From positions 1 through 64,000 of the forward strand of contig NZ_JAUOZU010000017.1 of the NCBI RefSeq assembly GCF_030551875.1: 64,000 bases of DNA. The letters run 5' to 3'. Made by a program: the position numbers and the translations under genes. A model generated the notes under the pieces. That model ran no database searches. It had not been told where the DNA came from and saw only the letters and a program-made list of their open reading frames with translations. The DNA is from Fluviirhizobium alvei (lineage in GTDB: Bacteria; Pseudomonadota; Alphaproteobacteria; Rhizobiales; Rhizobiaceae). Below are positions 1,348 to 18,513 of the stretch, piece by piece. Position 1 is the stretch's first letter. The number at the start of each line of letters is the position of its first letter.

Positions 1348-1358
1348 CTTGGATCTCC

Positions 1359-4443: not shown

Positions 4444-5412
4444 CTAGCTGGCCTTCGGTCGCCAGACGATGTCGCTGATGGTGAGCTTCTTCGGCAGCAC
4501 GCCCCAGGCATGGAAGTCATCGGCGAGCTGCTGTTGATGGTTGACCGCCTCGTCGCTGACGGTCGCGACAAGGCCGAGATCGGAACCGGTGCGGGTAAGG
4601 GTGACCCGGGTGATCTCCGGCTTGACGCCGGTCAGATCGGAAAGTGCCTTGGTGGTTCCGTCGATATCCTTCTGTGCGGCGGCGCCGACCTTGGCGAGCT
4701 CGTCGAGAAGATCGACGACGATATCCGGATGTGCGGCGACAAAATCACCATTGCCGAGGAAGAAGCCCCAAGCGTCGACGATCCCTTCGGATGTCGTCAG
4801 CACACGGGTATCAGGGTCGGCCTCAGCAACGGCATAGAAGGGATCCCAGATCGACCAGGCGTCGATGGAGCCATTCTTGAAAGCGGCGCCGGCATCGGGC
4901 GGCGGCAGATCCACGCTTTCGACGTCATCCGGCGTCAGACCGGCCTTGGCGAGCGCCTTGAAGGCGAAAGCATGCGCGGAAGAACCACGCTTGTAGGCGA
5001 CTTTCTTGCCCTTGAGATCGGCAAGCGTCTGGATAGGGGAATCCTTCTTTACGAGGATGCCGTGGAAGCCGGCCGGCGGACGATAGGTGCCGACATAGAG
5101 CAGGTTGCCGCCCGCTGTCTGGGCGAAGAGCGGCGGCACATCGCCCGTCGGTCCGAAGTCGACGGCACCAGCACCGAGCGCCTCGAGCAACGGCGGCCCG
5201 GAATTGAACTCGGCCCATTCGATTTCGACATTCTTGCCGGAGAGACGCTTTTCGAGGGCCCCGGTCTGCTTGGCGAGCGCCAGAACGCCGAACTTCTGCC
5301 AGCCGATGCGGAGCTTGACGGGTTCGGCAGCAAAAGCAGTCTGAAAGGTTGGCAGCAGCCCTGCGGCAACCGATGCTCCTATGAGAGAAAGTGTCTGTCT
5401 GCGTGTGACCAT
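4444..5412 (-). CDS. ssuA: Sulfonate-binding periplasmic protein SsuA, copy 2
   Basis: First gene of the ssu operon, 322 residues, with an MVTRRQTLSLIG signal region that ends after AFAA. It shares with the downstream copy the IGWQKxGVLALAK opening, [31 protein letters not shown] and the C-terminal DIVWxPKAS. The promoter just upstream holds an AT-rich inverted repeat also found in front of msuE and other genes of the island. GGAGG precedes the ATG. Two adjacent binding proteins with one permease/ATPase pair imply a tandem duplication. Confidence 0.92.
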   Translation of the reverse strand: MVTRRQTLSLIGASVAAGLLPTFQTAFAAEPVKLRIGWQKFGVLALAKQTGALEKRLSGKNVEIEWAEFNSGPPLLEALGAGAVDFGPTGDVPPLFAQTAGGNLLYVGTYRPPAGFHGILVKKDSPIQTLADLKGKKVAYKRGSSAHAFAFKALAKAGLTPDDVESVDLPPPDAGAAFKNGSIDAWSIWDPFYAVAEADPDTRVLTTSEGIVDAWGFFLGNGDFVAAHPDIVVDLLDELAKVGAAAQKDIDGTTKALSDLTGVKPEITRVTLTRTGSDLGLVATVSDEAVNHQQQLADDFHAWGVLPKKLTISDIVWRPKAS

Positions 5413-5453
5413 GATTGTAGTGCCTCCAGGTTGATGGCGACCATATTGATATA

Positions 5454-5472
5454 ATCTACATAATTAGTCGAC
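5454..5472 (-). promoter_or_regulatory. Candidate Rrf2 operator in the ssuA promoter
   Basis: The plus strand reads ATCTACATAATTAGTCGAC. It matches the 19-base site before msuE (GTCTATATAATTGATAGAC) at 14 positions and sits about 40-60 bases before the ssuA start. Binding by the Rrf2 protein at 16.4 kb is inferred from recurrence only. Confidence 0.6.
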
Positions 5473-5572
5473 ATTATGTGGTTCTGAAAATGCGCCGATC
5501 TGGAGATTTTTTTTCCAAGTTTTCTGCCCGGAAGGATCCGGTGCGGAAACTTTCCCCTCGGAGAAACGCAAA

Positions 5573-5592
5573 CGGCGCCCCGAGGGGCGCCG
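5573..5592 (-). terminator. Terminator of the msuE-sfnB operon
   Basis: Nine-base perfect arms (CGGCGCCCC / GGGGCGCCG) with a minimal loop, followed on the minus strand by TTTGCGTTT. It is 24 bases after the sfnB stop and ahead of the ssu promoter, so it isolates the two operons. Confidence 0.75.
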
Positions 5593-5615
5593 CTGATGAT
5601 CCATACGGATGGGAA

Positions 5616-6857
5616 TCAGCTCCAGGCGTGGAGCGGCGGCTTTTCGCCGTTGAGGTAGTATTTGCCGAGGATCGAGTATTTCCAGCGCACCGGATCATGG
5701 AGCGTGTGGGTGCGCGCATTGCGCCAGTGTCGATCGAGATTATGTTCGGCAAGCGTCGAACGCGTACCGGCAAGCTCGAACAGCTTGTTGGTGGCCTCGA
5801 TGGCGATTTCGGTCGAAAGCACCTTGGCTTCGGCAGTGATGATCTGCGCCTCGGCGACCGTTTCCGCGTTGGGTTCGGCGACCGCCCGATCGATCGCCTG
5901 GCCGGCTTTTTCCAGCAGCGCCTGTGCCGCATGCAACCTGATCTTCAGGCTGCCGATGGCCTGGATCGTGTAGGGATCGTCCCAGGCATGATCGAGACCG
6001 CTATCCACCCAGGGACGCGACTTGGTACGCACGAAATCGATCGTTTCCTTGATCGCCGCCGAAGCAATGCCGTTATCGACCGCCACCTGGATGACCTGGA
6101 AGATGGCGCCATCGGCGGTCGGGCGTTCATAGCCCTTGTAGCCCGGCACCAGCCAGGCCTTGTCGACCTTGACATTGTCGAGGATCACGGTGCCGGACAG
6201 CGTCGTGCGCTGACCGAAGCTCGACCAGTCGTCGATCACTGTCAGGCCGGGCGCATTGCGATCCGCAATCGCATACCAGGCACGGCCCTGATCATCGAGG
6301 GCGACGATCGGCACCTTGTGGGCAAGGAGCGCACCGGACGAATAGAACTTGCGGCCATTGACCACGACATGGTCACCGTGATCGGTAAACTTCGTCTCGA
6401 AATCCGCCGCCCGCTTGGAACCGAATTCCGAAAAGGCATTGCCGAACCGTGTGCCCTTGAGCACCTCGCCGAACAGCAGTTTCTGTTGGGCGGGATCGGA
6501 GACGGTGCGGATAGCGGCAACGACGCCAAGATGGTTCTGCGACACCTGGCCGATCGAAGGATCGGCTTCCGAGATGATCTCGACGACCTTGCCGAGGGTG
6601 GCATAGGAAACATCCGGTCCACCAAACTCCTGCGGAACATTGATGGACCAAAGACCGCTCTGGGAGAAGGCATCGAGTTCGGCCGCCGGCCAGATCCGTT
6701 CGCGGTCGCGTTTGGAGGCTCCCTTGACGAATTCGGCCGCGAGCTTGTGGGCGATCTCGATCGCCTCATCGTCTGACCTGATGATATAGGCCGGTTCAGC
6801 CGGACGGGCGACGCCGGGCACGCCGACGGGTTTGTTCACATTGGCATTGACGTTCAT
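5616..6857 (-). CDS. sfnB: SfnB-family sulfur-acquisition flavin oxidoreductase (acyl-CoA dehydrogenase fold)
   Basis: A 413-residue acyl-CoA-dehydrogenase-fold flavoprotein. It shows the N-terminal helical domain (VPQEFGGPDVSYATLGKVVE), the mid beta domain (KFYSSGALLAHKVPIVALDD) and the C-terminal helical domain ending in DPVRWKYSILGKYYLNG, typical of the SfnB/DszC-like group rather than true acyl-CoA dehydrogenases. In Pseudomonas, sfnB belongs to the dimethyl sulfone utilisation regulon; the reaction is not well defined but is probably an FMNH2-dependent oxygenation or dehydrogenation of a C-S compound. It is the last gene of the operon, 18 bases after the livF-like gene, with AGGAG before its ATG. 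Confidence 0.88.
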   Translation of the reverse strand: MNVNANVNKPVGVPGVARPAEPAYIIRSDDEAIEIAHKLAAEFVKGASKRDRERIWPAAELDAFSQSGLWSINVPQEFGGPDVSYATLGKVVEIISEADPSIGQVSQNHLGVVAAIRTVSDPAQQKLLFGEVLKGTRFGNAFSEFGSKRAADFETKFTDHGDHVVVNGRKFYSSGALLAHKVPIVALDDQGRAWYAIADRNAPGLTVIDDWSSFGQRTTLSGTVILDNVKVDKAWLVPGYKGYERPTADGAIFQVIQVAVDNGIASAAIKETIDFVRTKSRPWVDSGLDHAWDDPYTIQAIGSLKIRLHAAQALLEKAGQAIDRAVAEPNAETVAEAQIITAEAKVLSTEIAIEATNKLFELAGTRSTLAEHNLDRHWRNARTHTLHDPVRWKYSILGKYYLNGEKPPLHAWS

Positions 6858-6875
6858 GGGATACTCCTGTGGTGG

Positions 6876-7646
6876 TCAGGCAGCCGGCCTGTCGGTGGAA
6901 AAACTGCCGCTTTCGCCGAGATAGAAGGCCTTGATATCGGCGCGGTCACGGAGCTCGGCTGCGGGTCCCGACAGGACCGTGCGGCCGTTCTCGATCACGG
7001 TGGCGACATCGGCAAATTGGAGAGCGACGGTGGAATTCTGTTCGGCCACGAGCAGCGAAAGTCCGTTGTCGCGGTTGAGTTTTTTGAGAGCCCGGAAAAT
7101 GTCCTGGATCACCATGGGCGCAAGTCCCATGGATGGCTCGTCCAGAACGAGCAGGCGCGGTCGTGACATCAGCGCACGGCCGATGGCCGTCATCTGCTGC
7201 TCGCCGCCGGAAATGAGACCGGCGGATGTGTGGCGCTTGTCCCTAAGACGCGGAAAGGTGGCGTAGACATGGTCGAGATCGCGCGCAATGTCGGCCCTGC
7301 CTGATCCGCGACCCAGAGCGCCGGATACGAGATTTTCCTCGACGCTGAGGCTCTTGAAGCAATGCCGCCCTTCGAGCACCTGTACCAAGCCCGCCCTGAC
7401 GAGCTCGGCCGGACTATGCCGCTGGACATCGCGACCGTCGAAAACAATCGATCCTGATTTGACCTGGCCGCGCTCGGCTGGCAGCAGGTTTGAGACGGCC
7501 TTGAGCGTGGTACTCTTGCCCGCACCGTTGGAGCCGAGCAGCGCCACGATCTCGCCATCGCGGACGCGGATGCTGACGCCGGACAATGCCTTGATCGTTT
7601 CACTGTAGCTCGCATGGATCGCATCGATTTCAAGCAGGTTGGACAT
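6876..7646 (-). CDS. LIV-type ABC transporter ATP-binding protein (LivF-like)
   Basis: One of two ATPases of a branched-chain-amino-acid-type (HAAT) importer, 256 residues, with Walker A GSNGAGKST, an ABC signature in the form ISGGEQQM and Walker B LLVLDEPSMGLAP. It is longer at the C-terminus than LivF of E. coli (about 237 residues). It lies between the binding protein and sfnB in a sulfur-utilisation operon, so its substrate is more likely an organosulfur compound than an amino acid; this is inference from context. Confidence 0.88.
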   Translation of the reverse strand: MSNLLEIDAIHASYSETIKALSGVSIRVRDGEIVALLGSNGAGKSTTLKAVSNLLPAERGQVKSGSIVFDGRDVQRHSPAELVRAGLVQVLEGRHCFKSLSVEENLVSGALGRGSGRADIARDLDHVYATFPRLRDKRHTSAGLISGGEQQMTAIGRALMSRPRLLVLDEPSMGLAPMVIQDIFRALKKLNRDNGLSLLVAEQNSTVALQFADVATVIENGRTVLSGPAAELRDRADIKAFYLGESGSFSTDRPAA

Positions 7647-7690
7647 GGGAAAACCCTTTCAGATGATCGCGCCCTCGATTTGGGTCAACG

Positions 7691-7713
7691 CCCCTCCCCA
7701 CAAGGAGGAGGGG
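7691..7713 (-). other. Intra-operon hairpin before the livF-like gene
   Basis: Seven-base perfect arms (CCCCTCC / GGAGGGG) around nine bases in an 80-base gap. No T run follows on the minus strand, so a processing or stability element is more likely than termination. Confidence 0.4.
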
Positions 7714-7726
7714 TCTTTTCCAATCC

Positions 7727-9064
7727 TCAGTTCACCGCGCCTTCGGCATCAGCCTCGGTCCTGAGCTTGAGCCCCTTTTCCTTGGCATAGGCTTCGGCGC
7801 TCTTTTCGATGATCGGGCGCAGCAGCTTCCAGTCCGGCGCGATCCAGTCCGAGACGACGTTCCACTTCTTGCCATCCCATTGCTGGAAGGTGACGTAGCC
7901 TTCGCCTTCGTGGTTGTCCCAGGACACATTGATCGAATGGAACAGGTCCTTGGCGCCAAGGGCTTCCACCTTCGCCTGGTCGAGCTTGAGATGTTCGAAG
8001 CCCCAGCGAACCTCATCGCCGGTCAGCGTGCGCTTGCCGAACTTCTCCTGGGCGATGCGGATCGCCTCGACATTGAGGATGCCGTTGACGATGCCGAGAT
8101 TGTGATAGACCGAGCCGATGCGCTTCTTGTCTTCGAGATTGCCCTGACCCTTGTCATAGAGGTTGGCGATGATCTCCTTGACGATCGGATAATCGGCACC
8201 GGATGCCTGGGTGGTGATGGCGGTATAGCCGATGGCCGCATCGCCGGCCGGGATCACGTCCTCTTCCGAGTTGGACCAGACATTGCCGACGATCTTGGTA
8301 ACCGGAAAGCCCACCTTCTGGGCAGTCTTCAGCGCCACCGGGTTCATGACCCCCCAGCCGCGCAGCACCACATAATCCGGCTTGGCGCGGCGGATGGTCA
8401 GCCATTGCGACTGCTGCTCGTTGCCCGGATGCGGCACCTCGATCTGCTGCAGCGTAAATCCGTATTTCTCTGCCAGCAGTTCATAGATCGGGATCGTTTC
8501 CTTGCCATAGGGCGAGCCGTGATAGAGGACGACGATCTTCTTGCCCTTGAGCTTTTCAAGCCCGCCTTCCTTGGAGGCGAGATAGTTGATGATGCCCGAG
8601 GTTTCCGAATAGGGATTGAGCAGCAGCGGGAAGACGTAAGGGAAGACGCGGCCATCTGTGGAGTCGGTGCGACCGTGATTGACAGTAACGAGCGGCACCT
8701 TGTCGGTGGAGATGCGATCGATCATCGCATAGGCAATACCGACAGACAGCGGGTTCCAGGCGGCGGCTCCGGCGCGGCTCTTCTGGCGTTCGTAGCATTC
8801 GACGCCGCGTTCGACCTCATACTGGGTTTCGCACTCGTCCCAGGTCAGCTTGACGCCGTTCACACCGCCGTCGCGGGTGTTGATGAGGTTCATATAGTCG
8901 ATGAAGCCGCCGAAGAAGCCGGTACCGCCGGCAGCATAGGGGCCGACGCGATAGGATTGCAGCGGAAAATACTGCTCGTCGGCCTTGGCCGGCAGGCTGG
9001 TGCCGGCAATCAGGATGGCGATGCCGGCTGCGGCAGCGCGAAGGGTGTTGGTCAGGTATTTCAT
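7727..9064 (-). CDS. LIV-type ABC transporter periplasmic binding protein
   Basis: Type I periplasmic-binding-fold receptor, 445 residues, beginning with a clear signal peptide (MKYLTNTLRAAAAGIAILIAG, cleavage expected after LPAKA). It is longer than LivJ/LivK (about 370) and belongs to the larger HAAT receptors that bind diverse small molecules. Motifs include KKIVVLYHGSPYGKE and a TITTQASGADYP region. Two Cys (in WDECETQYEVERGVECYE) may form a disulfide. It follows livM by 87 bases. The operon context with sfnG and sfnB suggests that it binds an organosulfur ligand. Confidence 0.88.
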   Translation of the reverse strand: MKYLTNTLRAAAAGIAILIAGTSLPAKADEQYFPLQSYRVGPYAAGGTGFFGGFIDYMNLINTRDGGVNGVKLTWDECETQYEVERGVECYERQKSRAGAAAWNPLSVGIAYAMIDRISTDKVPLVTVNHGRTDSTDGRVFPYVFPLLLNPYSETSGIINYLASKEGGLEKLKGKKIVVLYHGSPYGKETIPIYELLAEKYGFTLQQIEVPHPGNEQQSQWLTIRRAKPDYVVLRGWGVMNPVALKTAQKVGFPVTKIVGNVWSNSEEDVIPAGDAAIGYTAITTQASGADYPIVKEIIANLYDKGQGNLEDKKRIGSVYHNLGIVNGILNVEAIRIAQEKFGKRTLTGDEVRWGFEHLKLDQAKVEALGAKDLFHSINVSWDNHEGEGYVTFQQWDGKKWNVVSDWIAPDWKLLRPIIEKSAEAYAKEKGLKLRTEADAEGAVN

Positions 9065-9151
9065 CAGGCAAGCTCCTTCTGTTGACCGGATTGACTGTCC
9101 GGCCCTGATGACGATTTCACTGGGATTGATTGGGGTCGCGGTCCGGGGCGC

Positions 9152-10201
9152 TCAGCCTTCGGAGAGAGACCTGGTTCTGGATCCGATCCTTAACCAGAGG
9201 CGCTGGGCCAGAGCGGCCAACCCATCGGGTTCGAGGATCAGGAATACGATGATGAGGGCACCAAGGACGATACGCTGGCTCATGTCGAGGACGCCGGAGT
9301 CAAAGAGATCGCCGAGCAGAAACGTGCCGACCTGCGACAGGACCACCGGGAAGACCACGATCAGCGCCGCTCCGAGAAAGGCGCCACGAATGGTCGCCAA
9401 CCCGCCGATGATAACGATGAACAGGATCTGGAACGAACGGTCGAGATTGAAACCAGCCGGCTCGACGGTGCGAAGATAGGCAAAGGCCCAGAGCGCGCCC
9501 GCCACCCCGATGATGAAGGACGAGAGCGCGAAAGCGAGCAGTTTTGTCTTCAGCACCGGCACGCCGATGAAGCGGGCCGCCGTCTCATTGTCGCGAACGG
9601 CAACGAAGTTGCGGCCGGTCTGAGACGTCGCCACCCGCCAGGCCAGTGTGGTGAGCAGCGTCACGATGATGAGCGCGAAATAATAGCGGCCGAGCGAACC
9701 TTCGAACGCAATCCCGAGCAGCGACAGCGCAGGCGCATCGATGACGCCCGATGGATTGTCGTTGGAGAACCAGCCGAATTTGGTCAGCGCCCATTGAACG
9801 AAGAACTGCGCTGCGAGCGTCGATACTGCGAGATAGAAGCCCTTGAGGCGCAGGCTCGGCAGGCCGAAGACGATGCCGACTGCCGCTGCCACGCCGCCGG
9901 CCAGGAGAATGCTGACGACGAGCGGCAGTCCTTCGATACGAAGGTTGAAATTGAAGGCGGCGAAGGCACCCACTGCCATGAAGGCGGCGCTTCCGAGCGA
10001 CACCTGGCCGGCATAACCGGTGAGAAGGTTGAGGCCGACTGCCGCAAGCGATAGCGCCAGAAACGGCATCATGATCGCTTCGATGAGATAGTTCGAACCG
10101 AACAGCGGTACGAGAACGAAGGCAGCGAGGAGCACGGCAAGCGGGCCGGCCCAGTCCGGGTGTTTGAGCGTGGTAACCGTTTCGGAAGCAAGGATGGCCA
10201 T
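9152..10201 (-). CDS. LIV-type ABC transporter permease (LivM-like)
   Basis: Inner-membrane permease, 349 residues with about ten hydrophobic segments and the LivM hallmark LNLLTGYAGQVSLGSAAFMA. The open frame extends far upstream into livH, but the ATG at 10201 is two bases after the livH stop and fits the family start. It pairs with the LivH-like permease upstream. C-terminal residues after LILEPDGLAALAQRLW are cytoplasmic. Nothing in the permease itself tells the substrate. Confidence 0.9.
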   Translation of the reverse strand: MAILASETVTTLKHPDWAGPLAVLLAAFVLVPLFGSNYLIEAIMMPFLALSLAAVGLNLLTGYAGQVSLGSAAFMAVGAFAAFNFNLRIEGLPLVVSILLAGGVAAAVGIVFGLPSLRLKGFYLAVSTLAAQFFVQWALTKFGWFSNDNPSGVIDAPALSLLGIAFEGSLGRYYFALIIVTLLTTLAWRVATSQTGRNFVAVRDNETAARFIGVPVLKTKLLAFALSSFIIGVAGALWAFAYLRTVEPAGFNLDRSFQILFIVIIGGLATIRGAFLGAALIVVFPVVLSQVGTFLLGDLFDSGVLDMSQRIVLGALIIVFLILEPDGLAALAQRLWLRIGSRTRSLSEG

Positions 10202-10203
10202 GA

Positions 10204-11103
10204 TCAGACCCTTTCGACAAGTTTCTGGCCGAACAGACCGGAGGGACGGATGAGCAGGAAGACGAGCGCCAGCACATAGGCGAACCAGCCCTCGATGCCG
10301 CCACCGACATAGTCGCCGATATAGACCTCGGCGAGTTTTTCGGAGGCGCCGATGATCAGGCCGCCGATGATGGCGCCGGCAATCGAATCGAATCCTCCGA
10401 GCACGAGGACCGGCAAAGCCTTGAGCACGACGAGCGACAGCGAGAACTGCACCCCGGAACGGGCACCCCACAGAAGACCGGCAACGAGAGCGACAAGCCC
10501 GGCTGCTGCCCAGACGGTGGCCCAGATGCGGGGCAGGCGAAGGCCGACGGCGAGGGCGGCGAACTGATCGTCAGCAACAGCCCGGAACGATAGGCCGACA
10601 CGGGTGTAGCGGAAGAAAAGCGTCAACAGCAGCACCATCAGCGCGGCCGATCCGGCAGCAAAGAGATCGAACTGCGAGATGAAGATGCCGTGGAATTCGA
10701 AGGGAATATCCTCGATGCCGAGATCGAGCGCATGAACCTGGGTGCCCCAGAGAAGCTGTGCAGAACCCTCGATCACATAGGACAGGCCGAGCGTCGCCAT
10801 GAAGAGGGTGATCGGCGGCTTGTTGACCAGCGGCCTGAGTACAGTGCGCTCCACCATCAGACCGATCAGGACCATGATCGCGAAGGTGACAACCAGCGCA
10901 AGCCAGAACGGAACCCCGCGCTCGACGAGCGACACGAAGGTGAGTGCCGCAAAAAGGAGCATGGCGCCCTGGGCAAAGTTCAGGACACCGGACGTCTTGT
11001 AGATCAGCACGAAACCGATCGCGACCAGCGAATACATGACGCCCGAAAGAAGCCCTCCGGTGAGAACCTCAAGGAAGAAGAGATAGTCGAAGCCTTCGGA
11101 CAT
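10204..11103 (-). CDS. LIV-type ABC transporter permease (LivH-like)
   Basis: Second permease of the HAAT importer, 299 residues, with about eight hydrophobic helices, the GVMYSLVAIGFVLIYKTSGVLNFAQG opening typical of LivH and a C-terminal LIRPSGLFGQKLVERV. Its ATG overlaps the stop of the livG-like gene by one base, indicating translational coupling. It forms a heterodimeric channel with the LivM-like protein. Confidence 0.9.
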   Translation of the reverse strand: MSEGFDYLFFLEVLTGGLLSGVMYSLVAIGFVLIYKTSGVLNFAQGAMLLFAALTFVSLVERGVPFWLALVVTFAIMVLIGLMVERTVLRPLVNKPPITLFMATLGLSYVIEGSAQLLWGTQVHALDLGIEDIPFEFHGIFISQFDLFAAGSAALMVLLLTLFFRYTRVGLSFRAVADDQFAALAVGLRLPRIWATVWAAAGLVALVAGLLWGARSGVQFSLSLVVLKALPVLVLGGFDSIAGAIIGGLIIGASEKLAEVYIGDYVGGGIEGWFAYVLALVFLLIRPSGLFGQKLVERV

Positions 11104-12023
11104 CAGATGCCCTCCTCGAAATCGTCATGGCGGGCAACGCCGAGATAGGCATCGATGACCGCCTGGTCTGCGCGAACTTCGGCGGGCGTGCCATCGGCAA
11201 TCTTTCGGCCGTAGTCGAGAACGGCAATCCGATCCGACAGGCCCATCACGACACCGATGTCATGCTCGATCAGGATGATTGTCGTGCCGTAATCGTCGCG
11301 CACGGAACGGATGAAACCTGCCATCTCCTGCTTTTCGGTGACGGTCATGCCGGCCATCGGCTCGTCGAGCAGCAGGATTTCGGGATTGGCAACAAGAGCA
11401 CGGGCCATCTCGACCCGTTTCTGCAGTCCGTATGGCAGCGATCCGGCAAGCCGGTCGGCATGGGCCTCCAGCTTGAGGAACGATAGAATGGAGTGCGCCC
11501 TCTCGCGCGCATCGCGGTCTTCGCGGCGGGCTCGCGGCAAGCCGAAGGCCTGGCCGATGAAGGTGGATCGGCGGGTGAAGGCGAGCCCGGCCATGACATT
11601 TTCCAGCACCGTCAGCCCCTTGAACAGCGCAAGATTCTGGAAGGTGCGCGCAAGGCCAAGGCGAGCGGCGCGGCTGGCCGGGACCTGCCGGAACACCTGA
11701 CCGCCAAGGGTGATGAAGCCGGTGTCGGGCCTGTAGAGCCCGCTGATGATATTGATCAGCGAACTCTTGCCGGCACCGTTGGGGCCAATGATTGCACGGA
11801 TTTCTCCGGGATTTACCGAGAGGCTGATCTCTGCAAGCGCCGTCAGGCCGCCGAAGGACAGCGTGACATCATCAAGCGCCAGGACCGGCTGCGGTGTCAG
11901 GCTGAGAGCAACCGGGGCCTGAACACGCGACGCGCGGTTGGGCAATTGCACATTGACCGACGGGAATTCACGGAACGACGCGCTGCCGTCCAAAGCGGAG
12001 AAAGTGTAATGGGTATCCAGCAT
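11103..12023 (-). CDS. LIV-type ABC transporter ATP-binding protein (LivG-like)
   Basis: ATPase of 306 residues with Walker A GPNGAGKSS, a LivG-type signature (LPYGLQKRVEMARAL) and Walker B LLLDEPMAGM. The start at 12023 (MLDTHYTF, AGAGGG upstream) gives about 45 residues before the ABC domain; a start further inside is possible but has no better ribosome-binding site. A 106-base gap with a strong hairpin separates it from sfnG. It partners the LivF-like ATPase encoded at the far end of the operon. Confidence 0.88.
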   Translation of the reverse strand: MLDTHYTFSALDGSASFREFPSVNVQLPNRASRVQAPVALSLTPQPVLALDDVTLSFGGLTALAEISLSVNPGEIRAIIGPNGAGKSSLINIISGLYRPDTGFITLGGQVFRQVPASRAARLGLARTFQNLALFKGLTVLENVMAGLAFTRRSTFIGQAFGLPRARREDRDARERAHSILSFLKLEAHADRLAGSLPYGLQKRVEMARALVANPEILLLDEPMAGMTVTEKQEMAGFIRSVRDDYGTTIILIEHDIGVVMGLSDRIAVLDYGRKIADGTPAEVRADQAVIDAYLGVARHDDFEEGI

Positions 12024-12075
12024 CTCGATCCCTCTCATCTGCGGAAAGCCATGGTTCTGGACGCACCGCCCCGAT

Positions 12076-12099
12076 CGGCATCCCGCAACCGGGATGCCG
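12076..12099 (-). other. Intra-operon hairpin between sfnG and the livG-like gene
   Basis: Ten-base perfect arms (CGGCATCCCG / CGGGATGCCG) with a four-base loop and no T run on the minus strand. Probably limits or stabilises transcript segments within the operon. Confidence 0.5.
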
Positions 12100-12129
12100 T
12101 CTGTTGTCGTTTCAGGATGGGCGGATGGC

Positions 12130-13242
12130 CTATTCGGCCGCCTGCAGGCTTCCGGCTTCCTGCGCTTCGAGTTCCCGCACCAGCGGGATGACCTTCTTGC
12201 CGAAATATTCGACCTCTTCCTGGAAATGCAGGAAACCCATGAGGATGAGATCGGCACCAGCCCGCTTGTGGGCGATGATGCGTTCGGCGACCTGTTCGGG
12301 CGTTCCGATCAGATTGGAACGGAAGCCATCGTTATATTGGACCAGATCCTGGAAGGTCGACTTGGCCCAGTTGCCTTCGCGCTCCGGCGATGAATTGCCG
12401 GCATTCTGGACTTCGTGATGGAAGCCGCGCACCGCATCGGGAATAGCCTTGTCGATGACTTCCTGCAGGACCGCTTTGGCTTCCTGCTCCGTTTCGCGCA
12501 CGATGCCGAAGGCATTCATGCCGATCCTGGCCGGCCAGGACTTGCCGAACGCCCGTTCCTTGCCGCGAATATCGTCGACCTGGGCCTTGAGACCTTCCGG
12601 CGTGTTGCCATTGGTGAAGTACCAGTCGGACACCCGGGCCGCCATGTCACGGGCGGCGCGCGACGAACCGCCCTGGAAGATCTGCGGAATGCCACCGAGC
12701 GGCTTCGGCTTCATCGAATAATCGGTGAAGCGGTAGAAATCGCCGCGCAGATTGTAGCTGTCCTCGGTCCAGATGCCGCGGATGGCGCGGATGAATTCTT
12801 CCGAACGGCGGTAACGTTCGTCATGATCGAGCCAGGGCTCGCCAATGGCGGCGAATTCGCCGCGGAACCAGCCCGAGACGATGTTGACATCGATGCGGCC
12901 ATTGGTGATGTGGCTGATCGTGGCAATCTGCTTGGCGAGCAGCGCCGGGTTCCAGGGGCCGGGCAGCACGGCTGCGATGACACGCAGCTTTTCGGTGGCA
13001 GCCAGCAACGCATGGCTGAAGGATACCGATTCATGCTGGTTATCCGCACCATAGCCGGCCGTGAAGCGGATCTGGCTCAGCGCATATTCGAAACCGTTCT
13101 GTTCGGCGATCTGCGCCAGCTTGCGATTGTAATCGATGCCCCAGTCGGTTCGCTGTTCGATCGAACTGATCACCAGGCCGCCGGAAACGTTCGGCACCCA
13201 ATAGGCAAACTTCAGCGGTTCATTCTTCTTCGGATTCGTCAT
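12130..13242 (-). CDS. sfnG: FMNH2-dependent dimethyl sulfone monooxygenase SfnG
   Basis: Luciferase-fold flavin monooxygenase of 370 residues that converts dimethyl sulfone to methanesulfinate with FMNH2 and O2. The sequence follows the SfnG pattern closely: FAYWVPNVSGGLVISSIEQR, a WGIDYNRKLAQIAEQ helix, SQIRFTAGYGADNQHES and NIVSGWFRGEF. The product can be oxidised to methanesulfonate and desulfonated, feeding sulfite assimilation. FMNH2 would come from msuE two genes upstream. Start has GGAGAACG-type spacing and lies 11 bases after a small ORF. Confidence 0.94.
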   Translation of the reverse strand: MTNPKKNEPLKFAYWVPNVSGGLVISSIEQRTDWGIDYNRKLAQIAEQNGFEYALSQIRFTAGYGADNQHESVSFSHALLAATEKLRVIAAVLPGPWNPALLAKQIATISHITNGRIDVNIVSGWFRGEFAAIGEPWLDHDERYRRSEEFIRAIRGIWTEDSYNLRGDFYRFTDYSMKPKPLGGIPQIFQGGSSRAARDMAARVSDWYFTNGNTPEGLKAQVDDIRGKERAFGKSWPARIGMNAFGIVRETEQEAKAVLQEVIDKAIPDAVRGFHHEVQNAGNSSPEREGNWAKSTFQDLVQYNDGFRSNLIGTPEQVAERIIAHKRAGADLILMGFLHFQEEVEYFGKKVIPLVRELEAQEAGSLQAAE

Positions 13243-13253
13243 GTCGTTCTCCG

Positions 13254-13469
13254 TTAGCTCAGATATGGATCGGTAGAAGGGATGTCGGCGCAGACGACCT
13301 GTGCGGCTGCGAAACGCTCCTGGCGAAGGCGTTCGTCAGGGTCGGAAAAGCCGCGGAAGGCGTCAAAGGGAGTATCATCCTCGTCTCTGAAGGCTCGCCA
13401 ACGGGCCGAAAGACGCTCAAAAAAACTGGGCGGCAGATCCGCTCCCACGGCTGTGACGACCTGTTTCAT
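13254..13469 (-). CDS. Small hypothetical protein between msuE and sfnG
   Basis: A 71-residue, charged protein (many Arg, Asp, Phe) with a single Cys near the C-terminus. Its ATG overlaps the msuE stop as ATGA, a classic translational-coupling arrangement, and it ends 11 bases before sfnG, so it is almost certainly expressed with them. No signal peptide or membrane segment and no recognised domain. A small partner of the flavin reductase/monooxygenase pair is an attractive guess but is not shown by the sequence. Confidence 0.65.
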   Translation of the reverse strand: MKQVVTAVGADLPPSFFERLSARWRAFRDEDDTPFDAFRGFSDPDERLRQERFAAAQVVCADIPSTDPYLS

Positions 13470-14071
13470 GCGACTTCTCCTCTCTGAAAGTCATTGCGGT
13501 GAGACGGGATGGAACGGAAAGCGGGGACCGGATGCCGTCCGAGTTCCGCAAAGGCGATGAGCTCTTCGACGGCGGTTTCGATGCGGGCACCGATATCCGG
13601 GTTGCTGATGGCGTAGTCGGTGAAATCGGTTTCCAGCGCATAGATTGCCGTCGGAAGCGTGAGCGCCTTGAAGAAGGAGAAGAGCGGCCGGAGCTGATGG
13701 TCGATCATCAGACCATGAAGGGGGCTACCGCCAGTCGCGACCAGCACCACCGGCTTGCCGATGAGTGCACGAAAATCGACGAGATCGAAAAGATGCTTGA
13801 GCGCACCTGAATAGGACGCCCGATAGACCGGCGATCCGACCACCAGCACATCCGCATTCTCGATGGCCGAGACGATCTCCCGGCCCTCTTCATCCAGCTG
13901 ATCGGAACGAAGCGCACGAAACAGAACCGGCGCCTTCGCTGCCAGATCGATATGGTGCGGGGAAAGCTCGGTTCGCTCCTCGATCCGCTTGAGAACCGAG
14001 GCAAGGAGCGCACTGGTGCGCGACGGTGCCTTGACGTTGCCAGATATGCCGACGATTCTCAGATCACTCAT
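13466..14071 (-). CDS. msuE: NAD(P)H-dependent FMN reductase (MsuE/SsuE family)
   Basis: Flavodoxin-fold reductase of 201 residues that supplies FMNH2 to two-component monooxygenases. Shows the N-terminal phosphate-binding segment (GISGNVKAPSRTSAL), GSPVYRASYSGALKHLFDL and ATGGSPLHGLMIDHQLRPLF, as in MsuE/SfnE. The longer open frame (to 14116) is rejected: the ATG at 14071 has AAAGGG upstream, and the longer version would place its start inside the operator. It leads an operon with sfnG and could also serve ssuD. Confidence 0.9.
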   Translation of the reverse strand: MSDLRIVGISGNVKAPSRTSALLASVLKRIEERTELSPHHIDLAAKAPVLFRALRSDQLDEEGREIVSAIENADVLVVGSPVYRASYSGALKHLFDLVDFRALIGKPVVLVATGGSPLHGLMIDHQLRPLFSFFKALTLPTAIYALETDFTDYAISNPDIGARIETAVEELIAFAELGRHPVPAFRSIPSHRNDFQRGEVA

Positions 14072-14095
14072 GTTGCGCCCTTTCATCTTCATATT

Positions 14096-14114
14096 GTCTA
14101 TATAATTGATAGAC
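14096..14114 (-). promoter_or_regulatory. Candidate Rrf2 operator in the msuE promoter
   Basis: GTCTATATAATTGATAGAC: perfect six-base arms GTCTAT/ATAGAC around seven bases. It lies 25-43 bases before the msuE ATG and overlaps the likely -10 region on the minus strand. It is the most symmetrical of the five related sites in the island. Confidence 0.7.
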
Positions 14115-14167
14115 ATTAAGGGAAAAGAAAATCTGTCTCTTTTTAGATGGCTTTGGAGAATTCCGTT

Positions 14168-15691
14168 TCAGCTGTCCGCGCTTTGTCGTCTGCTTGCGGT
14201 CTTCAGGCTGCGGGCAGCCAGGATCTCGATCGCGACTGCATGCGCATGGTCCGAGACTTGCGGCAGGCCCATCAGTTCGCCAAAGGTGCCGCGTGCGAGC
14301 GGACCGGCAACATAGAGACCTTCGACGGGATGGCCGCTGCGATCGAGAATGTGCGCGTTGGCATCGCACCAGAGACCGAGACGCAAAGGATCCTGTGCCA
14401 CCAGCCCTTCCGCTTCAAGCGCCGCAAGGTAAGGCTGGCTTGCGATGATGGCATCATGGGCGGGTCCCGTCGTCACGACCACCGCATCGAAATCGCGGAT
14501 CAATGTGCCACCGGCACGGGCGCGTTTGAGCGCGATGCGAATTTTTGCGCCCTGATAGGTCACGGCTGCGACGGATGCTGCCAGCGTTACGAGCTGGCCG
14601 CGCTCTGTAGCCACGGCAAGCGCTCTTTCGATCTGTGGCGCGATCCGGAACCGGTGCACATCCCAGAAGGGGCGCAGATGTCGGACCAGCCGTCGACGCT
14701 CTTCGACGGACAGATTGCTCCAGATCTCAGACCCCTGTGCGCGGGCGGCATCGAGCACCGCATGCCAGCTGACGCCAAACAGGGCGGCCTGATCTATGGC
14801 TTCGCGGACGCGGCGCGCCAGAAGCCGTGCTGACCGAATGGGGCGGCTGACAAAATCGCCATGCAGATCCTGCTGCACCGGAGAATGCCCACGCGACCGC
14901 AGGCCGCGGCGGGAAATCGAGGTGATCGGCCCCGTATGGCCGCGTGCCAGGAGCGAGGCGATTACATCGGCCGATGTCAAACCATTGCCGACCAGCAGCG
15001 CCGCATCTGTCGGACGGATGACATCGAGCGCACCGGCAACGGTGGCATCGGGTACAAAACGCGGATGGCCTTCGAGCATGGAGTGCAAAAGCCGCGGCGG
15101 CGATGGCGTCGGATGGCTGGTAGCAATGACCACCTCCGAAGCCTGAAAATGGTTCCCGCCGTCACTTTCGATCGTCCAGTGATCTTCCGTTCGATGAAGG
15201 CTCGAGACCCGCGCTTTGACATGCACGATCCGCCCCGCAGAGAGGTAAGGTTCAAGCCGCGCCGCTACATAGTCTCCAAATGCGGCCCGGCGCGGAAAGA
15301 GGCTGCCATCGGGCAACATCGCATCCGGATCCTGCTCTGCATAGAAGCGGTCATGCAGCCAGTCGGCAAAATCCTGCGGCCGGTCCGGGTCGAGGCTCAT
15401 GCGGCTCGCCGGTACGTTGATCCGATGGATCGGATCTTGCGTGTCATAGGCAAGACCTGCGCCCAGCTTGGTGCGGGGTTCGAAGACCAGAACGTGAATG
15501 GACGGGTCGGTGGAAACGAGGTTCCACGCTGTGGCCGCACCGGTGAAGCCACCGCCGATCACCGCGATCCAGTCCGTTGTCGTTTGGGACGCGCTGACCG
15601 GATGCGGTCGCGTCGCTTCTGTCAGATTCCGAGGTTTCAGGTTTACGTCGTGGCTCTGCAGATCGATTGCCGGATGCGGATTCTGGGACAT
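14168..15691 (-). CDS. FAD/NAD(P)-binding protein, copy 1 (sulfur island)
   Basis: A 507-residue flavoprotein of the FAD_NAD(P)-binding (HydN/YdhS-like) type with Rossmann motif GGGFTGAAT (46-54), an INVPASRMSLDPDRPQDFADWL block and a second nucleotide-binding stretch (ALLVGNGLTSADV). No substrate is known for this family. It is paralogous to the 454-residue protein at 17000-18364, sharing the VPAxRMSLxPDRPxDxxDWL block. The start at 15691 is preferred over 15697 for ribosome-site spacing. Its divergent promoter faces the flavin reductase gene, and its context suggests an oxygenase or oxidoreductase step on an organosulfur compound. Confidence 0.8.
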   Translation of the reverse strand: MSQNPHPAIDLQSHDVNLKPRNLTEATRPHPVSASQTTTDWIAVIGGGFTGAATAWNLVSTDPSIHVLVFEPRTKLGAGLAYDTQDPIHRINVPASRMSLDPDRPQDFADWLHDRFYAEQDPDAMLPDGSLFPRRAAFGDYVAARLEPYLSAGRIVHVKARVSSLHRTEDHWTIESDGGNHFQASEVVIATSHPTPSPPRLLHSMLEGHPRFVPDATVAGALDVIRPTDAALLVGNGLTSADVIASLLARGHTGPITSISRRGLRSRGHSPVQQDLHGDFVSRPIRSARLLARRVREAIDQAALFGVSWHAVLDAARAQGSEIWSNLSVEERRRLVRHLRPFWDVHRFRIAPQIERALAVATERGQLVTLAASVAAVTYQGAKIRIALKRARAGGTLIRDFDAVVVTTGPAHDAIIASQPYLAALEAEGLVAQDPLRLGLWCDANAHILDRSGHPVEGLYVAGPLARGTFGELMGLPQVSDHAHAVAIEILAARSLKTASRRQSADS

Positions 15692-15732
15692 CGTCATCCC
15701 TCACTCGTTTCGTTTCGTCTCTTAATCCATAA

Positions 15733-15752
15733 TGTATATAATTTTTATTGAC
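15733..15752. promoter_or_regulatory. Weaker candidate Rrf2 site in a divergent promoter
   Basis: TGTATATAATTTTTATTGAC shares the TATATAATT core and a GTCAAT half with the msuE site but has two extra bases in the spacer. It lies between the divergent FAD protein and flavin reductase genes. Confidence 0.4.
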
Positions 15753-15807
15753 AATATGCGTTTTGAATTTATCGTTCGTCCCATCATCGCCTCTGAAAGG
15801 AACGTCA

Positions 15808-16341
15808 ATGAACATGATTCAGACCCAGCCGGCCTTCGATAGCCGTTATCATGCCGATCACGCCGAACCGGCGGATGTGAAGCGCGCATTGCGTAGTCTT
15901 GCCGGCGGCGTCAGTGTGATTACCGCCGGTCGCGGTGACGAACGCACAGGCGCGACCGTCACCTCGGCCACGGGTCTTTCGATGGATCCGCCGACCATGA
16001 TCGTGAACATCAACAAAACTTCGTCAAGCTGGCCGGTGATCAAGCGACATGGGCATTTCTGCGTCAACATCCTGAACGACCGCCAGCAGGAAATCGCCAA
16101 CCGTTTTGCCGGAATCGGCGGCATCAAGGGCGTGGCGCGCTATGAGGGCGCGCAATGGACGACGCTTGCGAGCGGCGCACCGGTGCTGATCGATGCGCTT
16201 GCCGCCATCGATTGCGAAGTCGAGGAAGTCATCGAACGGCACAGCCACGCAATCATCCTCGGTCGGGCGCTCGCCGTTGCCATCGGCGATGGCGGCTCGC
16301 TCGTCTACCAGAATGGCGGTTACGGCCAATTCGTTCGCTGA
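15808..16341 (+). CDS. Flavin reductase-like protein (FMN-binding split-barrel)
   Basis: A 177-residue flavin_reduct-domain protein of the DIM6/HpaC type, with the typical ALRSLAGGVSVITAGRG opening, TVTSATGLSMDPPTMIVNINKTSSSWPVI and HFCVNILND blocks. Such proteins reduce FMN or FAD with NAD(P)H for a partner monooxygenase. The ATG at 15808 (GAAAGGA upstream) is chosen over the longer frame. It is divergent from the first FAD protein and convergent with the Rrf2 regulator, separated by a bidirectional terminator. It may be a second flavin source for the island's monooxygenases. Confidence 0.88.
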   Translation: MNMIQTQPAFDSRYHADHAEPADVKRALRSLAGGVSVITAGRGDERTGATVTSATGLSMDPPTMIVNINKTSSSWPVIKRHGHFCVNILNDRQQEIANRFAGIGGIKGVARYEGAQWTTLASGAPVLIDALAAIDCEVEEVIERHSHAIILGRALAVAIGDGGSLVYQNGGYGQFVR

Positions 16342-16375
16342 GTTGGTTTTCGCCGGCAGGCTGGACCGGAGAAAT

Positions 16376-16415
16376 AGAAAGGCCGCAGGTCACTGAACGG
16401 ACCTGCGGCCTTTCA
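16376..16415. terminator. Bidirectional terminator
   Basis: Fifteen-base perfect arms (GAAAGGCCGCAGGTC and its complement, 16377-16391 / 16400-16414) with an eight-base loop, A and T on the flanks. It sits between the convergent flavin reductase and Rrf2 genes and can serve both. Confidence 0.9.
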
Positions 16416-16435
16416 TGTTCCGGATCTATGACAGG

Positions 16436-16903
16436 TCAGGTCGCGACCTTTGTTCGATCCATGTCGAGGTCGATATCCAATTCGGCATAGTCGCCCGAAA
16501 TCAGTTGTTCGAGTGTGAGCTTGTCGAGAATCTCGGAAATGGCATCGCGCACCTGGGTCATCGCCTTGCGCACCAGACAGCTTGCCGGATCGGCGCAATC
16601 GTCGCAGGCCTCGTAGGCGGTGCGGCTTGCGCAACGGATCGGCGCCAGCGGTCCGTCGATGACGCGGATCGCATGGCCGATCCGGATCTCGGATGCAGGC
16701 CGCGATAGCGAATAACCGCCCGTGGGGCCCTTGCGCGAACGCACGATGCCGGCATTGCGCAATTCGAGCAGGATCGTGTCGAGAAATTTCTTCGGGATCT
16801 GGTTAGCCAGCGCGATCTCACCGCTGAAGGCGGTTTCGCCCTCCGGCAATCGGGCGAGGGCGATCAGGGCCTTTAGGCCGTATTTTCCCTTTTTGGTGAG
16901 CAT
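16436..16903 (-). CDS. Rrf2-family transcriptional regulator of the sulfur island
   Basis: A 155-residue Rrf2 protein with an N-terminal winged helix (MLTKKGKYGLKALIALA, recognition region KKFLDTILLELRNAGIV, wing RKGPTGGYSL). It carries four Cys at 91, 100, 103 and 109, where IscR, NsrR and RirA hold their Fe-S ligands, so cluster or thiol sensing is possible. Relatives include CymR, the cysteine-metabolism repressor of Firmicutes. It is embedded between FAD/flavin genes and has an AT-rich repeat upstream of its own start, consistent with autoregulation. Control of the ssu and sfn operons is inferred from shared sites. Confidence 0.88.
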   Translation of the reverse strand: MLTKKGKYGLKALIALARLPEGETAFSGEIALANQIPKKFLDTILLELRNAGIVRSRKGPTGGYSLSRPASEIRIGHAIRVIDGPLAPIRCASRTAYEACDDCADPASCLVRKAMTQVRDAISEILDKLTLEQLISGDYAELDIDLDMDRTKVAT

Positions 16904-16942
16904 GAAGGAGCACCTGAGTTTCGAGTCGGTCTCGGAAGCGAG

Positions 16943-16968
16943 CTATATAGACTTTATAGATATAATTT
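16943..16968 (-). promoter_or_regulatory. Candidate Rrf2 autoregulatory site
   Basis: An AT-rich stretch (CTATATAGACTTTATAGATA followed by TAATTT) upstream of the Rrf2 gene. It holds the ATAGAC half and TATAATT core of the island's sites, though not in one clean palindrome. Confidence 0.4.
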
Positions 16969-16999
16969 TCGCTTACATTCTCAAGCGCAGCCGACATCA

Positions 17000-18364
17000 T
17001 CAACCGGACATTTTCTCCACGATGCGGTTAGCGACGTCGCGAGCCTGCACCCTGATATCCGGAACCGCGAAGATTTCGAAGAACTGCCCCGTCGTCATCG
17101 GGCCGATGGCGTAAGCCGATTGCGCGACCGAACCATCGGATCGCAGAAGCTGCGATTGGGCGTTGACCGCAACGCCGAGGCCGAGGGCATCCGCCCCGAT
17201 CAGCCCGCGCGCCGACATTTTCTTGAGCAGCGGAACCTTCGAGATCGAGCATTTCTCCATACCGGTGCAATTGACGACCCAGTCGGCGCTCAACTGACGC
17301 AAGGTGCCTGTGTGGCGGTCGCGATAGGCGACCCGGGCGCGCCCATCCTTTTCATAGACCTCCTGCAGCCAGCCGGCGCGGATCGTGAGCTGGCCGCTTT
17401 CCCGCATTGTGTCGAGATTGGCTCGGACATCAGGTGCCATCCGGTGGCGGTGAATGTTCCACCAGCTGTTGGCATGGCGCAAAAACCGCTGCCGCTCTTC
17501 CAGACAAAGATGCTGCCAGAGCGCCTGTGTGACAGGGCGGATACCATCGACCACGCTGCGCCAGTCAGAAGCCTGTCGGGCAGCATCCCGCAACTGTTGC
17601 ATCATCCGGCTCAAGGGAGCCGTTCCAGGTGTGAGGACCGGCGCTGTCGCGTCGCTTCGGGGTACGACATGCGGCAAAGGCAAAAGCCCGTGGCGCGACA
17701 GAACATGGATCGGGCCGCGATGGCCGCGAGAGCGCAGCGACATGACCTGATCGACCATGGTCAGACCGGAACCGAGCATGAAGATGGTATCATCCGGTGC
17801 TGTCCGTTCGATCCAGAGATCGGCCCAGACATTGAGACAGATATGCCGGCGCGCGGCATCCGCAATCCGGCTTTCCGCGATCGGAAGCCGCGCGGGCGTG
17901 CCGCCGATACAGAAAACGCTGGCGCGCGCTGCAATCCTCGCACCATTCGACAGGTGAAAGACCTGCCGGTCATCGCCCAATTCTTCGCAATCAATCGCAT
18001 CGGCATCCTCGAAGGAGACGCCGGCACGATTGTCGAGCTGCGCCAATCGCTCATCCAGCCGTTGTTTCACATATTGGCCGAAGACCGGACGCGGCACGAA
18101 ATCCTCCGGGCCTGAAGCGACGCCGGTCTCGCTGAGCCAGTCACAAAGATCGTCCGGACGATCGGGAAACAGGCTCATCCTCGCAGCCGGAACATTCAAA
18201 CGGTGAACCTCCTCAGGCGTCGAATAGGCGACACCCTGTCCCATCGTTCTGGAGCGACCGACCACCGCGACATGCAGCCGCCTTTCGGCATTCGCGGCGA
18301 TGTTCATGAGGGTAACGGCTGAGGAAAGGCCATTGCCAATGACCGCAATATCAACGGACTTCAT
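17000..18364 (-). CDS. FAD/NAD(P)-binding protein, copy 2 (sulfur island)
   Basis: A 454-residue flavoprotein related to the protein at 14168-15691. N-terminal dinucleotide motif VIGNGLSSAVTLMNI, then LNVPAARMSLFPDRPDDLCDWLSE, and a second motif FMLGSGLTMVDQVMSL. No signal peptide is seen. The gene has its own promoter with a strong copy of the island's inverted repeat 14 bases before the start, and a perfect AGGAG site. Substrate unknown; the family has been annotated as hydroxyacylglutathione-related or ydhS-like without firm biochemistry. Conservation of two paralogs in one regulon argues for separate roles. Confidence 0.82.
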   Translation of the reverse strand: MKSVDIAVIGNGLSSAVTLMNIAANAERRLHVAVVGRSRTMGQGVAYSTPEEVHRLNVPAARMSLFPDRPDDLCDWLSETGVASGPEDFVPRPVFGQYVKQRLDERLAQLDNRAGVSFEDADAIDCEELGDDRQVFHLSNGARIAARASVFCIGGTPARLPIAESRIADAARRHICLNVWADLWIERTAPDDTIFMLGSGLTMVDQVMSLRSRGHRGPIHVLSRHGLLPLPHVVPRSDATAPVLTPGTAPLSRMMQQLRDAARQASDWRSVVDGIRPVTQALWQHLCLEERQRFLRHANSWWNIHRHRMAPDVRANLDTMRESGQLTIRAGWLQEVYEKDGRARVAYRDRHTGTLRQLSADWVVNCTGMEKCSISKVPLLKKMSARGLIGADALGLGVAVNAQSQLLRSDGSVAQSAYAIGPMTTGQFFEIFAVPDIRVQARDVANRIVEKMSG

Positions 18365-18377
18365 GTAAACTCCTATA

Positions 18378-18396
18378 GTTTATATAATTTATAGAC
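18378..18396 (-). promoter_or_regulatory. Candidate Rrf2 operator upstream of FAD protein 2
   Basis: GTTTATATAATTTATAGAC matches the msuE site at 17 of 19 positions. An additional short palindrome (AGACTTTAAAGTCT) overlaps its right end. Confidence 0.68.
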
Positions 18397-18513
18397 TTTA
18401 AAGTCTGGTGGAAGTCAAGAGACGAGTTGGTCCAGGCGCTTCATCCGAGCGCTTCATCCGACTTCAGAAGCGTTGCCAGCACATGGTTAGCCTGTAACCG
18501 GTTTCGGCTATGA

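Follow-up and report, generated by a model that had tools for sequence, protein, structure and literature searches.

Conserved 25-bp palindromes as probable operators of an Rrf2-family regulator in an organosulfur island of Fluviirhizobium alvei

The organosulfur island and its predicted operators

The stretch analysed here, called the window, consists of positions 1 to 64,000 (64 kilobases, kb) of contig NZ_JAUOZU010000017.1 of Fluviirhizobium alvei, a member of the Rhizobiaceae. It contains an island of genes for the use of sulfonates and dimethyl sulfone and for flavoproteins, together with a gene encoding a regulator of the Rrf2 family. Four promoters of this island carry a palindrome of 25 base pairs (bp) with the arms TCTA and TAGA. 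Computation located these sites, their conservation in relatives, their co-occurrence with and nearness to one group of Rrf2 genes, and the genes that they adjoin. We consider it likely that the palindromes are the operators of the Rrf2 protein encoded at 16436-16903, for which we infer direct binding, a dimer, repression and a signal. The regulator, the predicted sites (with the loci of relatives, L numbers, in which they are kept) and the genes of the island are the following.

16436..16903, minus strand: Rrf2-family regulator, 155 amino acids, cysteines 91, 100, 103 and 109; PF02082 E 2.7e-36; nearest solved structure CymR 2y75
14093..14117, minus strand: predicted operator before msuE; 27.0 bits, best in the window; kept in L039, L045
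18375..18399, minus strand: predicted operator before FAD2; 24.4 bits; kept in L035, L036, L039, L043, L045
5451..5475, minus strand: predicted operator before the ssuA1 transcription unit; 24.1 bits, rank 3 in the window; kept before ssuA1 in L035, L039, L043, L045
15731..15755, no strand assigned: predicted operator in the divergent promoter of FAD1 (minus) and flavin reductase (plus); 22.8 bits; kept in L035, L039, L045
16944..16968, minus strand: weak candidate upstream of the Rrf2 gene, unproven; 11.0 bits, equalled in 2/30 Markov copies
559..2126, minus strand: ssuC and ssuB (ATPase 559-1347; permease about 1359-2126); open reading frames (ORFs) named by position and reading
2260..3426, minus strand: ssuD, alkanesulfonate monooxygenase; TIGR03565 574.8 bits, cut-off 518.2
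3456..4412, minus strand: ssuA2, second sulfonate-binding protein; TIGR01728 212.5 bits, cut-off 163.5
4444..5412, minus strand: ssuA1, sulfonate-binding protein; TIGR01728 236.4 bits, cut-off 163.5
5616..6857, minus strand: sfnB, sulfur-acquisition oxidoreductase; TIGR04022 616.8 bits, cut-off 430.9
6876..12032, minus strand: branched-chain amino acid type ATP-binding cassette (ABC) transporter; upper end approximate; binding protein at 7727-9064 identified by PF13458, other four genes by reading
12130..13242, minus strand: sfnG, dimethylsulfone monooxygenase; TIGR04021 615.9 bits, cut-off 382.95
13466..14071, minus strand: msuE, FMN reductase; TIGR03566 236.4 bits, cut-off 212.5
14168..15697, minus strand: FAD1, FAD/NAD(P)-binding protein; PF13454 E 2.9e-35
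15808..16341, plus strand: flavin reductase; PF01613 E 5.6e-38
17000..18364, minus strand: FAD2, FAD/NAD(P)-binding protein; PF13454 E 1.3e-29

The palindrome in the window and in the genome

The palindrome has the consensus ATaaTCTAyaaAnTttrTAGAttAT, that is TCTA-N9-TAGA, and was learned from relatives alone, the window being held out of the promoters from which the matrix was built. Its top four matches in the window are 14093-14117, 18375-18399, 5451-5475 and 15731-15755 (27.0, 24.4, 24.1 and 22.8 bits), and the best score per copy in 30 second-order Markov copies of the window ranged from 2.1 to 15.1. Column-permuted palindromic matrices (n=200) gave a mean of 0.02 window matches above 17 bits against four for the real matrix, and none of the 200 reached four. 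The shorter form GTCTAT-N7-ATAGAC was found with up to three mismatches at 22 places in the window where 7.97 were expected, a number reached in none of 100 shuffles; it is exact only at 14096-14114 and has one mismatch only at 18378-18396.

The first-pass annotation had reported near-identical sites at 5454-5472, 14096-14114 and 18378-18396, with GTCTAT-N7-ATAGAC as the msuE copy. All three are present, the msuE copy letter for letter, and are best described as 25-bp palindromes. Of the five promoters it held to be marked, four contain the four best sites of the 64 kb and the fifth, before the Rrf2 gene, is weak. Its supposed weak form at 15733-15752 turned out to be a strong site (15731-15755, 22.8 bits) at the divergent FAD1/flavin reductase promoter; that at 16943-16968 does exist as a weak form, with only 11.0 bits and an equal in 2/30 Markov copies. 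The Rrf2 gene, placed by it in the middle of the island, actually lies near one end. The naming of sulfonate, dimethyl sulfone and flavoprotein units was borne out by the family models, where SfnB, SfnG, SsuD and MsuE all score above their NCBIfam cut-offs and the two SsuA proteins above that of SsuA_fam.

In the 5.2 Mb genome of the organism the short core GTCNAYNAATTATRTA occurs exactly three times, every one inside the island. At up to two mismatches there were 18 matches, not above the 21 of the backward control, and therefore only the exact matches carry weight. The single match with one mismatch, C43:248558, was dropped because it precedes a recA-like gene (named by reading). The 25-bp pattern with up to two mismatches was found at four places, namely three island sites and one near a second Rrf2 gene linked to cysH, and with up to three mismatches at eight places, equal to the backward control.

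Conservation in related genomes

The motif was derived from homologues of the Rrf2 gene in relatives and the 20-kb regions around each of them. Several of these homologues sit among homologues of ssu, msuE, sfnG, sfnB, FAD and flavin reductase genes. A palindromic model of width 25 reached a log-likelihood of 191.4 in 20 promoters, compared with 34.5-42.1 in 12 sets resampled from a first-order Markov model; the best matches were poor in three of the 20 training regions (L038 ssuD 6.3, L046 ssuD 7.8, L046 ssuA1 10.0). Even-width palindromes fitted worse (149.9 at width 26). Higher values came from a palindrome of width 27 (207.3) and from a width-26 model without the symmetry constraint (224.1), both with more free positions; width 25, the extent of the symmetric core, was retained.

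When the matrix was rebuilt without the known same-genus loci, the same four window sites came out at 27.7-23.1 bits, with the next match at 9.4 bits. This second matrix drew on 83 loci with 51 distinct sites, of which 33 representatives were used; the sites had first been picked with the original matrix, and same-genus loci were left out as far as known, the genus not being verified locus by locus. In orthologous same-genus promoters the identity of the site was 69% compared with 38% for the flanks (14 ungapped comparisons). The named loci, which are the best 80 of 567 holding the regulator, come from Rhizobium, Shinella, Ensifer, Allorhizobium, Agrobacterium vitis and others; 47 of them contain one or more sites above 17 bits, and the total over all 80 is 93 such sites, where 40 permuted matrices averaged 0.62. 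In R. tropici (L142/L154) the FAD1 homologue is preceded by a site. The absence of sites from the orthologous promoters of relatives, considered at the outset as a ground for rejecting the idea, was not what we found, as they are present both in same-genus relatives and in the named Rhizobiaceae homologues.

A site of 18.6-19.2 bits precedes the Rrf2 gene in 7/80 named loci, whereas the copy in the window is only weak. The latter, at 16944-16968, may be a diverged site, which is suggestive at most and not established, and autoregulation of the Rrf2 gene in F. alvei is unproven.

Upstream of the solitary Rrf2 genes of same-genus relatives we observed a long inverted repeat, CCTTCATAGA...TCTATGAAGG, located about 28-60 nucleotides before the start codon (L032 9644-9676, similar in L033 and L034). 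In L036 the arms are different, could still pair, and lie at roughly the same place before the Rrf2 gene. An Rfam scan of L032-L036 gave nothing at gathering scores. The repeat of L032-L034 may function as an operator or form a hairpin in RNA. In L043 (7697-8649 and 10291-11637) the homologues of ssuA2 and FAD2 match in broken pieces, which reflects a frameshift or an assembly error.

Co-occurrence of the palindrome with the Rrf2 group

Of the 297 genomes of the family, 155 hold an Rrf2 match at E <= 1e-25 and 130 of these one at E <= 1.4e-41; the proteins at the latter level are called here the island group, the next best match after this level being 3.3e-39 or weaker. Of the genomes with the group, 77/130 contain the strict core TCTAYNNANTNNRTAGA (158 matches), compared with 15/167 of those without it (19 matches; Fisher P 3.8e-21), and the backward pattern is present in 28/130 (36 matches) compared with 20/167 (22 matches; P 0.038). 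When the genomes are divided by their Rrf2 content, the strict core is found in 48/83 with a single island-group match, 4/25 with a match at the level of the paralog only and 11/142 with neither, classes in which up to 12 candidates were scored per genome, so that paralogs beyond those could be missed. Moreover, among the 76 matches listed, 67 lie in genomes with a listed group gene, and 19 of these 67 are within 10 kb of that gene where about 0.27 would be expected. The proposal that this Rrf2 protein is a candidate regulator of organosulfur use is strengthened by both features, the co-occurrence of the site with its group and the clustering beside its gene.

The Rrf2-family protein

The protein encoded at 16436-16903 clearly belongs to the Rrf2 family (PF02082 125.1 bits, cut-off 30; TIGR00738 107.5, cut-off 73.3). 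Its AlphaFold model has a mean pLDDT (predicted local distance difference test) of 80.5, and Foldseek gave 38 matches at E <= 0.001, of which 35 are titled CymR, RsrR, IscR, NsrR or Rrf2 family and three just "putative". The nearest solved structure is CymR 2y75, both by sequence (E 4.9e-18) and by predicted fold. The protein stays below the equivalog cut-offs of CymR (NF047409; 80.8 bits, cut-off 195), IscR (TIGR02010; 70.9, cut-off 207.55) and RirA (NF008886; 49.5, cut-off 193).

Cysteines 91, 100, 103 and 109, with the spacing C-x8-C-x2-C-x5-C, are invariant in 19/19 aligned sequences (14 of the island group and five paralogs) and in 35/35 island-group sequences chosen from 81 (A3). Position 42, presumably the equivalent of Glu43 of IscR, is Asp in the 14 and the 35 island-group sequences and Glu in the five paralogs. 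Glu43 of IscR contacts a cytosine (PMC9338935). A tree splits the island group from the paralog group (support 96/90), with few columns and many unresolved forks.

Genes beside the sites and the cysH-linked paralog

In the window, msuE is the probable first gene of an msuE-sfnG-ABC transporter-sfnB unit. Between msuE and sfnG there is an ORF of 71 codons on the minus strand (13254-13469), which overlaps the end of msuE and probably shares their operon.

The ORFs that start near the 103 sites above 18 bits number 116 and fall into 29 clusters (simple ORF caller). They include 39 FAD/NAD(P)-binding proteins, 15 binding proteins of the sulfonate/taurine type, ten SfnB-like proteins, eight Rrf2 genes, six flavin reductases, five MsuE, three luciferase-like monooxygenases, three MetQ-like and three sulfate-binding proteins and two hydrolases. 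Many of the single-member clusters are probably spurious. A family scan of the targets identified a taurine-binding protein in Shinella (TIGR01729), another target of the MetQ/NlpA family and, in an unclassified Rhizobiales isolate, one of the NtaA/DmoA type. Of the 30 loci found with the family-wide pattern, 16 have a searched-for sulfur gene or an Rrf2 gene beside the site.

A further candidate member of the regulon is G000:C8:128520-128544 (L249), a site with three mismatches whose centre lies 94 bp before an alpha/beta hydrolase gene (by reading). The hydrolase has no NCBIfam match and is presumably RBBP9/YdeN-like. It was retained as a candidate because in L038 the homologous gene also has a site.

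The second Rrf2 gene adjoins cysH:

G000:C12:91139-91549: cysH-linked Rrf2 paralog, 45% identical to the island Rrf2 protein

At 1.4 kb from it lies the palindrome TAACTCTATCTAGTAGGTAGAGTAT (L031 7696-7720 = G000:C12:89695-89719; similar in L076-L079), which has the TCTA-N9-TAGA geometry and is centred 40 bp before a gene for a sulfate-binding protein. A loose pattern made for the site of the paralog was dropped, as it gave one exact match and many copies of a repeated GC-rich hairpin. Sites of the island type are also found near cys genes in L116, L130 and L136. In L116 and L136 (genomes G266 and G096) there is a single Rrf2 match, which is of the island group, and the site is near cysH or the gene for a sulfate-binding protein, as if in these two genomes the island-group regulator also ran sulfate assimilation.

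We tentatively suggest, as a possibility that we hold to be rather less than even, that the two four-cysteine Rrf2 paralogs divide the sulfur supply between them, one serving cysH and the sulfate transporter and the other organosulfur compounds, through related operators and with an Fe-S (iron-sulfur) or metal centre as the sensor of sulfur. If this were true, a cofactor made from sulfur would gate the search for sulfur. Asp or Glu at position 42 might separate the two sets of operators; that is a guess, against which stand the island-type sites at cys genes (L116, L130, L136).

Position in promoters and weighing of the explanations

The centre of the site lies 0-100 bp before an ORF start in 77/104 oriented contexts. 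Orienting 73 sites by the gene closest to them shows TAT starting at +10 on the gene side in 39 and on the other side in 17, and a putative -10-like element overlaps the gene-side edge of the predicted operator. A shared -10/-35 architecture was sought across the sites, and nothing beyond this gene-side TAT overlap stood out. Since the sites are at core promoters, repression during sulfur sufficiency is the best reading.

A dimer of the Rrf2 protein would bind TCTA-N9-TAGA in or beside the core promoters of four units, namely ssu, msuE-sfnG-transporter-sfnB, the FAD1/flavin reductase pair and FAD2. As long as reduced sulfur is sufficient it would repress all of them, and under sulfur starvation it would be released and they would be expressed together. 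The signal may come from a metal or Fe-S group bound by the four invariant cysteines or, alternatively, from a partner that reports O-acetylserine/cysteine, as for CymR. The island group would be devoted mainly to organosulfur use.

Being AT-rich and overlapping a -10-like sequence, the palindromes might be mere core promoter elements, alike by chance or through shared contacts of a sigma factor, yet permuted matrices of the same composition yield 0.02 matches in the window and 0.62 in the named loci where the real one yields four and 93, and the presence of sites depends on the Rrf2 group; we regard this explanation as very improbable. Another protein might read the sites, above all the cysH-linked paralog, while the island Rrf2 protein does something else. 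The paralog does have its own TCTA-N9-TAGA site before the gene for the sulfate-binding protein (L031 7696-7720; similar in L076-L079), and the island-type sites near cys genes make cross-talk plausible. Nevertheless, among the candidates scored, the strict core tracks the island group (48/83 genomes with a single match, of that group) and not the paralog (4/25 genomes with the paralog only), and the sites adjoin the island-group gene, which leaves this explanation unlikely. The protein might also bind the sites and activate the genes under sulfur starvation, for the site between FAD1 and flavin reductase touches a TTGACA, which may be used by the latter gene, and cluster-free IscR activates suf (PMC9973013). 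Against activation are the -10-like sequence overlapping the gene-side arm, the 77/104 contexts within 100 bp of an ORF start, the fact that CymR, the nearest relative, is a repressor (PMC3828012), and repression by RisR from sites that overlap -10 and -35 (PMC9973013). We give activation a small chance, somewhat larger than that of a different reader.

Several points weigh against the Rrf2 protein as the reader of these sites. No site above 17 bits was found within up to 10 kb on each side in 33/80 named loci. The same holds for 20/29 distinct rows of the Rhizobium clade that includes R. leguminosarum and R. phaseoli, and the strict core is missing in 53/130 genomes with the island group. In 14/30 loci of the family-wide pattern neither a searched-for sulfur gene nor an Rrf2 gene is beside the site, and four of these 14 are in genomes without the group. 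Of 91 sites above 19 bits, 13 are inside a called ORF and six have no ORF start nearby (simple caller). The 20 training promoters were picked from 39 upstream regions of relatives after inspection, leaving out mid-operon regions, the other side of divergent pairs and regions without an obvious site (e.g. L044). Moreover, the island group was delimited by E-value and not by a tree, the backward control leans slightly toward the same genomes (P 0.038), and the counts come from related genomes and are therefore not independent. Across the whole class the protein was found at E <= 1e-40 in only 9/289 genomes, that of F. alvei included; the group is common within the family but rare elsewhere in the class.

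In many of the 20 loci without a site in the R. leguminosarum clade, the best match lies some 90-100 bp upstream of the Rrf2 gene and is a diverged palindrome with a score of 9-14; a score of 11.7 is attained by permuted matrices in 5% of 20-kb loci. These palindromes (L188, L177, L152 and others, at about 9899) read AAGCTAT...ATAGCTATT or AACCTAT...GGGTTATT, and their arms appear to change together, as in a co-evolving operator.

Comparison with known systems

In soil, sulfonates, sulfones and sulfate esters are among the important sources of sulfur, and to our knowledge little is in print on how alphaproteobacteria coordinate the use of organosulfur compounds. SfnR, CysB/Cbl and SsuR, which we take to control the same kinds of target genes in other bacteria, belong to other protein families; no genes of these types were noticed on reading the ORFs of the island, at which no family scan for them was aimed.

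The Rrf2-type regulators of Fe-S biogenesis, RisR and IscR, resemble the island system in having palindromic operators with the same dyad geometry. IscR presumably has a three-cysteine pattern, unlike the C-x8-C-x2-C-x5-C of the island protein, whose neighbours are sulfur acquisition genes (isc and suf genes were not searched for). The operator of RisR is GAC-N7-GTC with AT-rich flanks and overlaps -10/-35 (PMC9973013). An Rrf2-family sulfur regulator outside Firmicutes was also proposed in Rhodococcus, as a global one, from annotation and proteome data; its neighbourhood, in contrast to the island, encodes no sulfur metabolism proteins (PMC8557817).

The closest likeness is to CymR of Bacillus and Staphylococcus, also of the Rrf2 family, which is nearest to the island protein by sequence and by fold and has ssu among its targets; the predicted sites described here stand before ssu and other sulfur genes. 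However, the aligned CymR has no cysteines in the stretch that holds the four invariant ones, the island protein scores below the CymR cut-off, and its sites adjoin msuE, sfn and flavoprotein genes. In B. subtilis, cysK, ssu, mccAB and tcyP are under repression by CymR (PMC3828012), and Rrf2 control of ssu is thus not new in itself, which qualifies the first-pass annotation, where CymR-like control was known from Firmicutes and no equivalent for a combined ssu/sfn island. Open-access titles and the starts of abstracts, a corpus without subscription papers and RegPrecise, showed no Rrf2 regulator of ssu, sfn or msu in Proteobacteria. What would be new here is that a phylum other than Firmicutes uses a logic like that of CymR, based on a four-cysteine protein, an operator of its own and a regulon of sfn, msu and flavoprotein genes. 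The regulon can be tested directly, since its operator is clear, there is a candidate for its regulator, and targets are predicted in Rhizobium, Shinella, Ensifer and Allorhizobium. If the proposal is true, CymR-like control of sulfur use would extend beyond Firmicutes, with a different, cysteine-rich sensor region.

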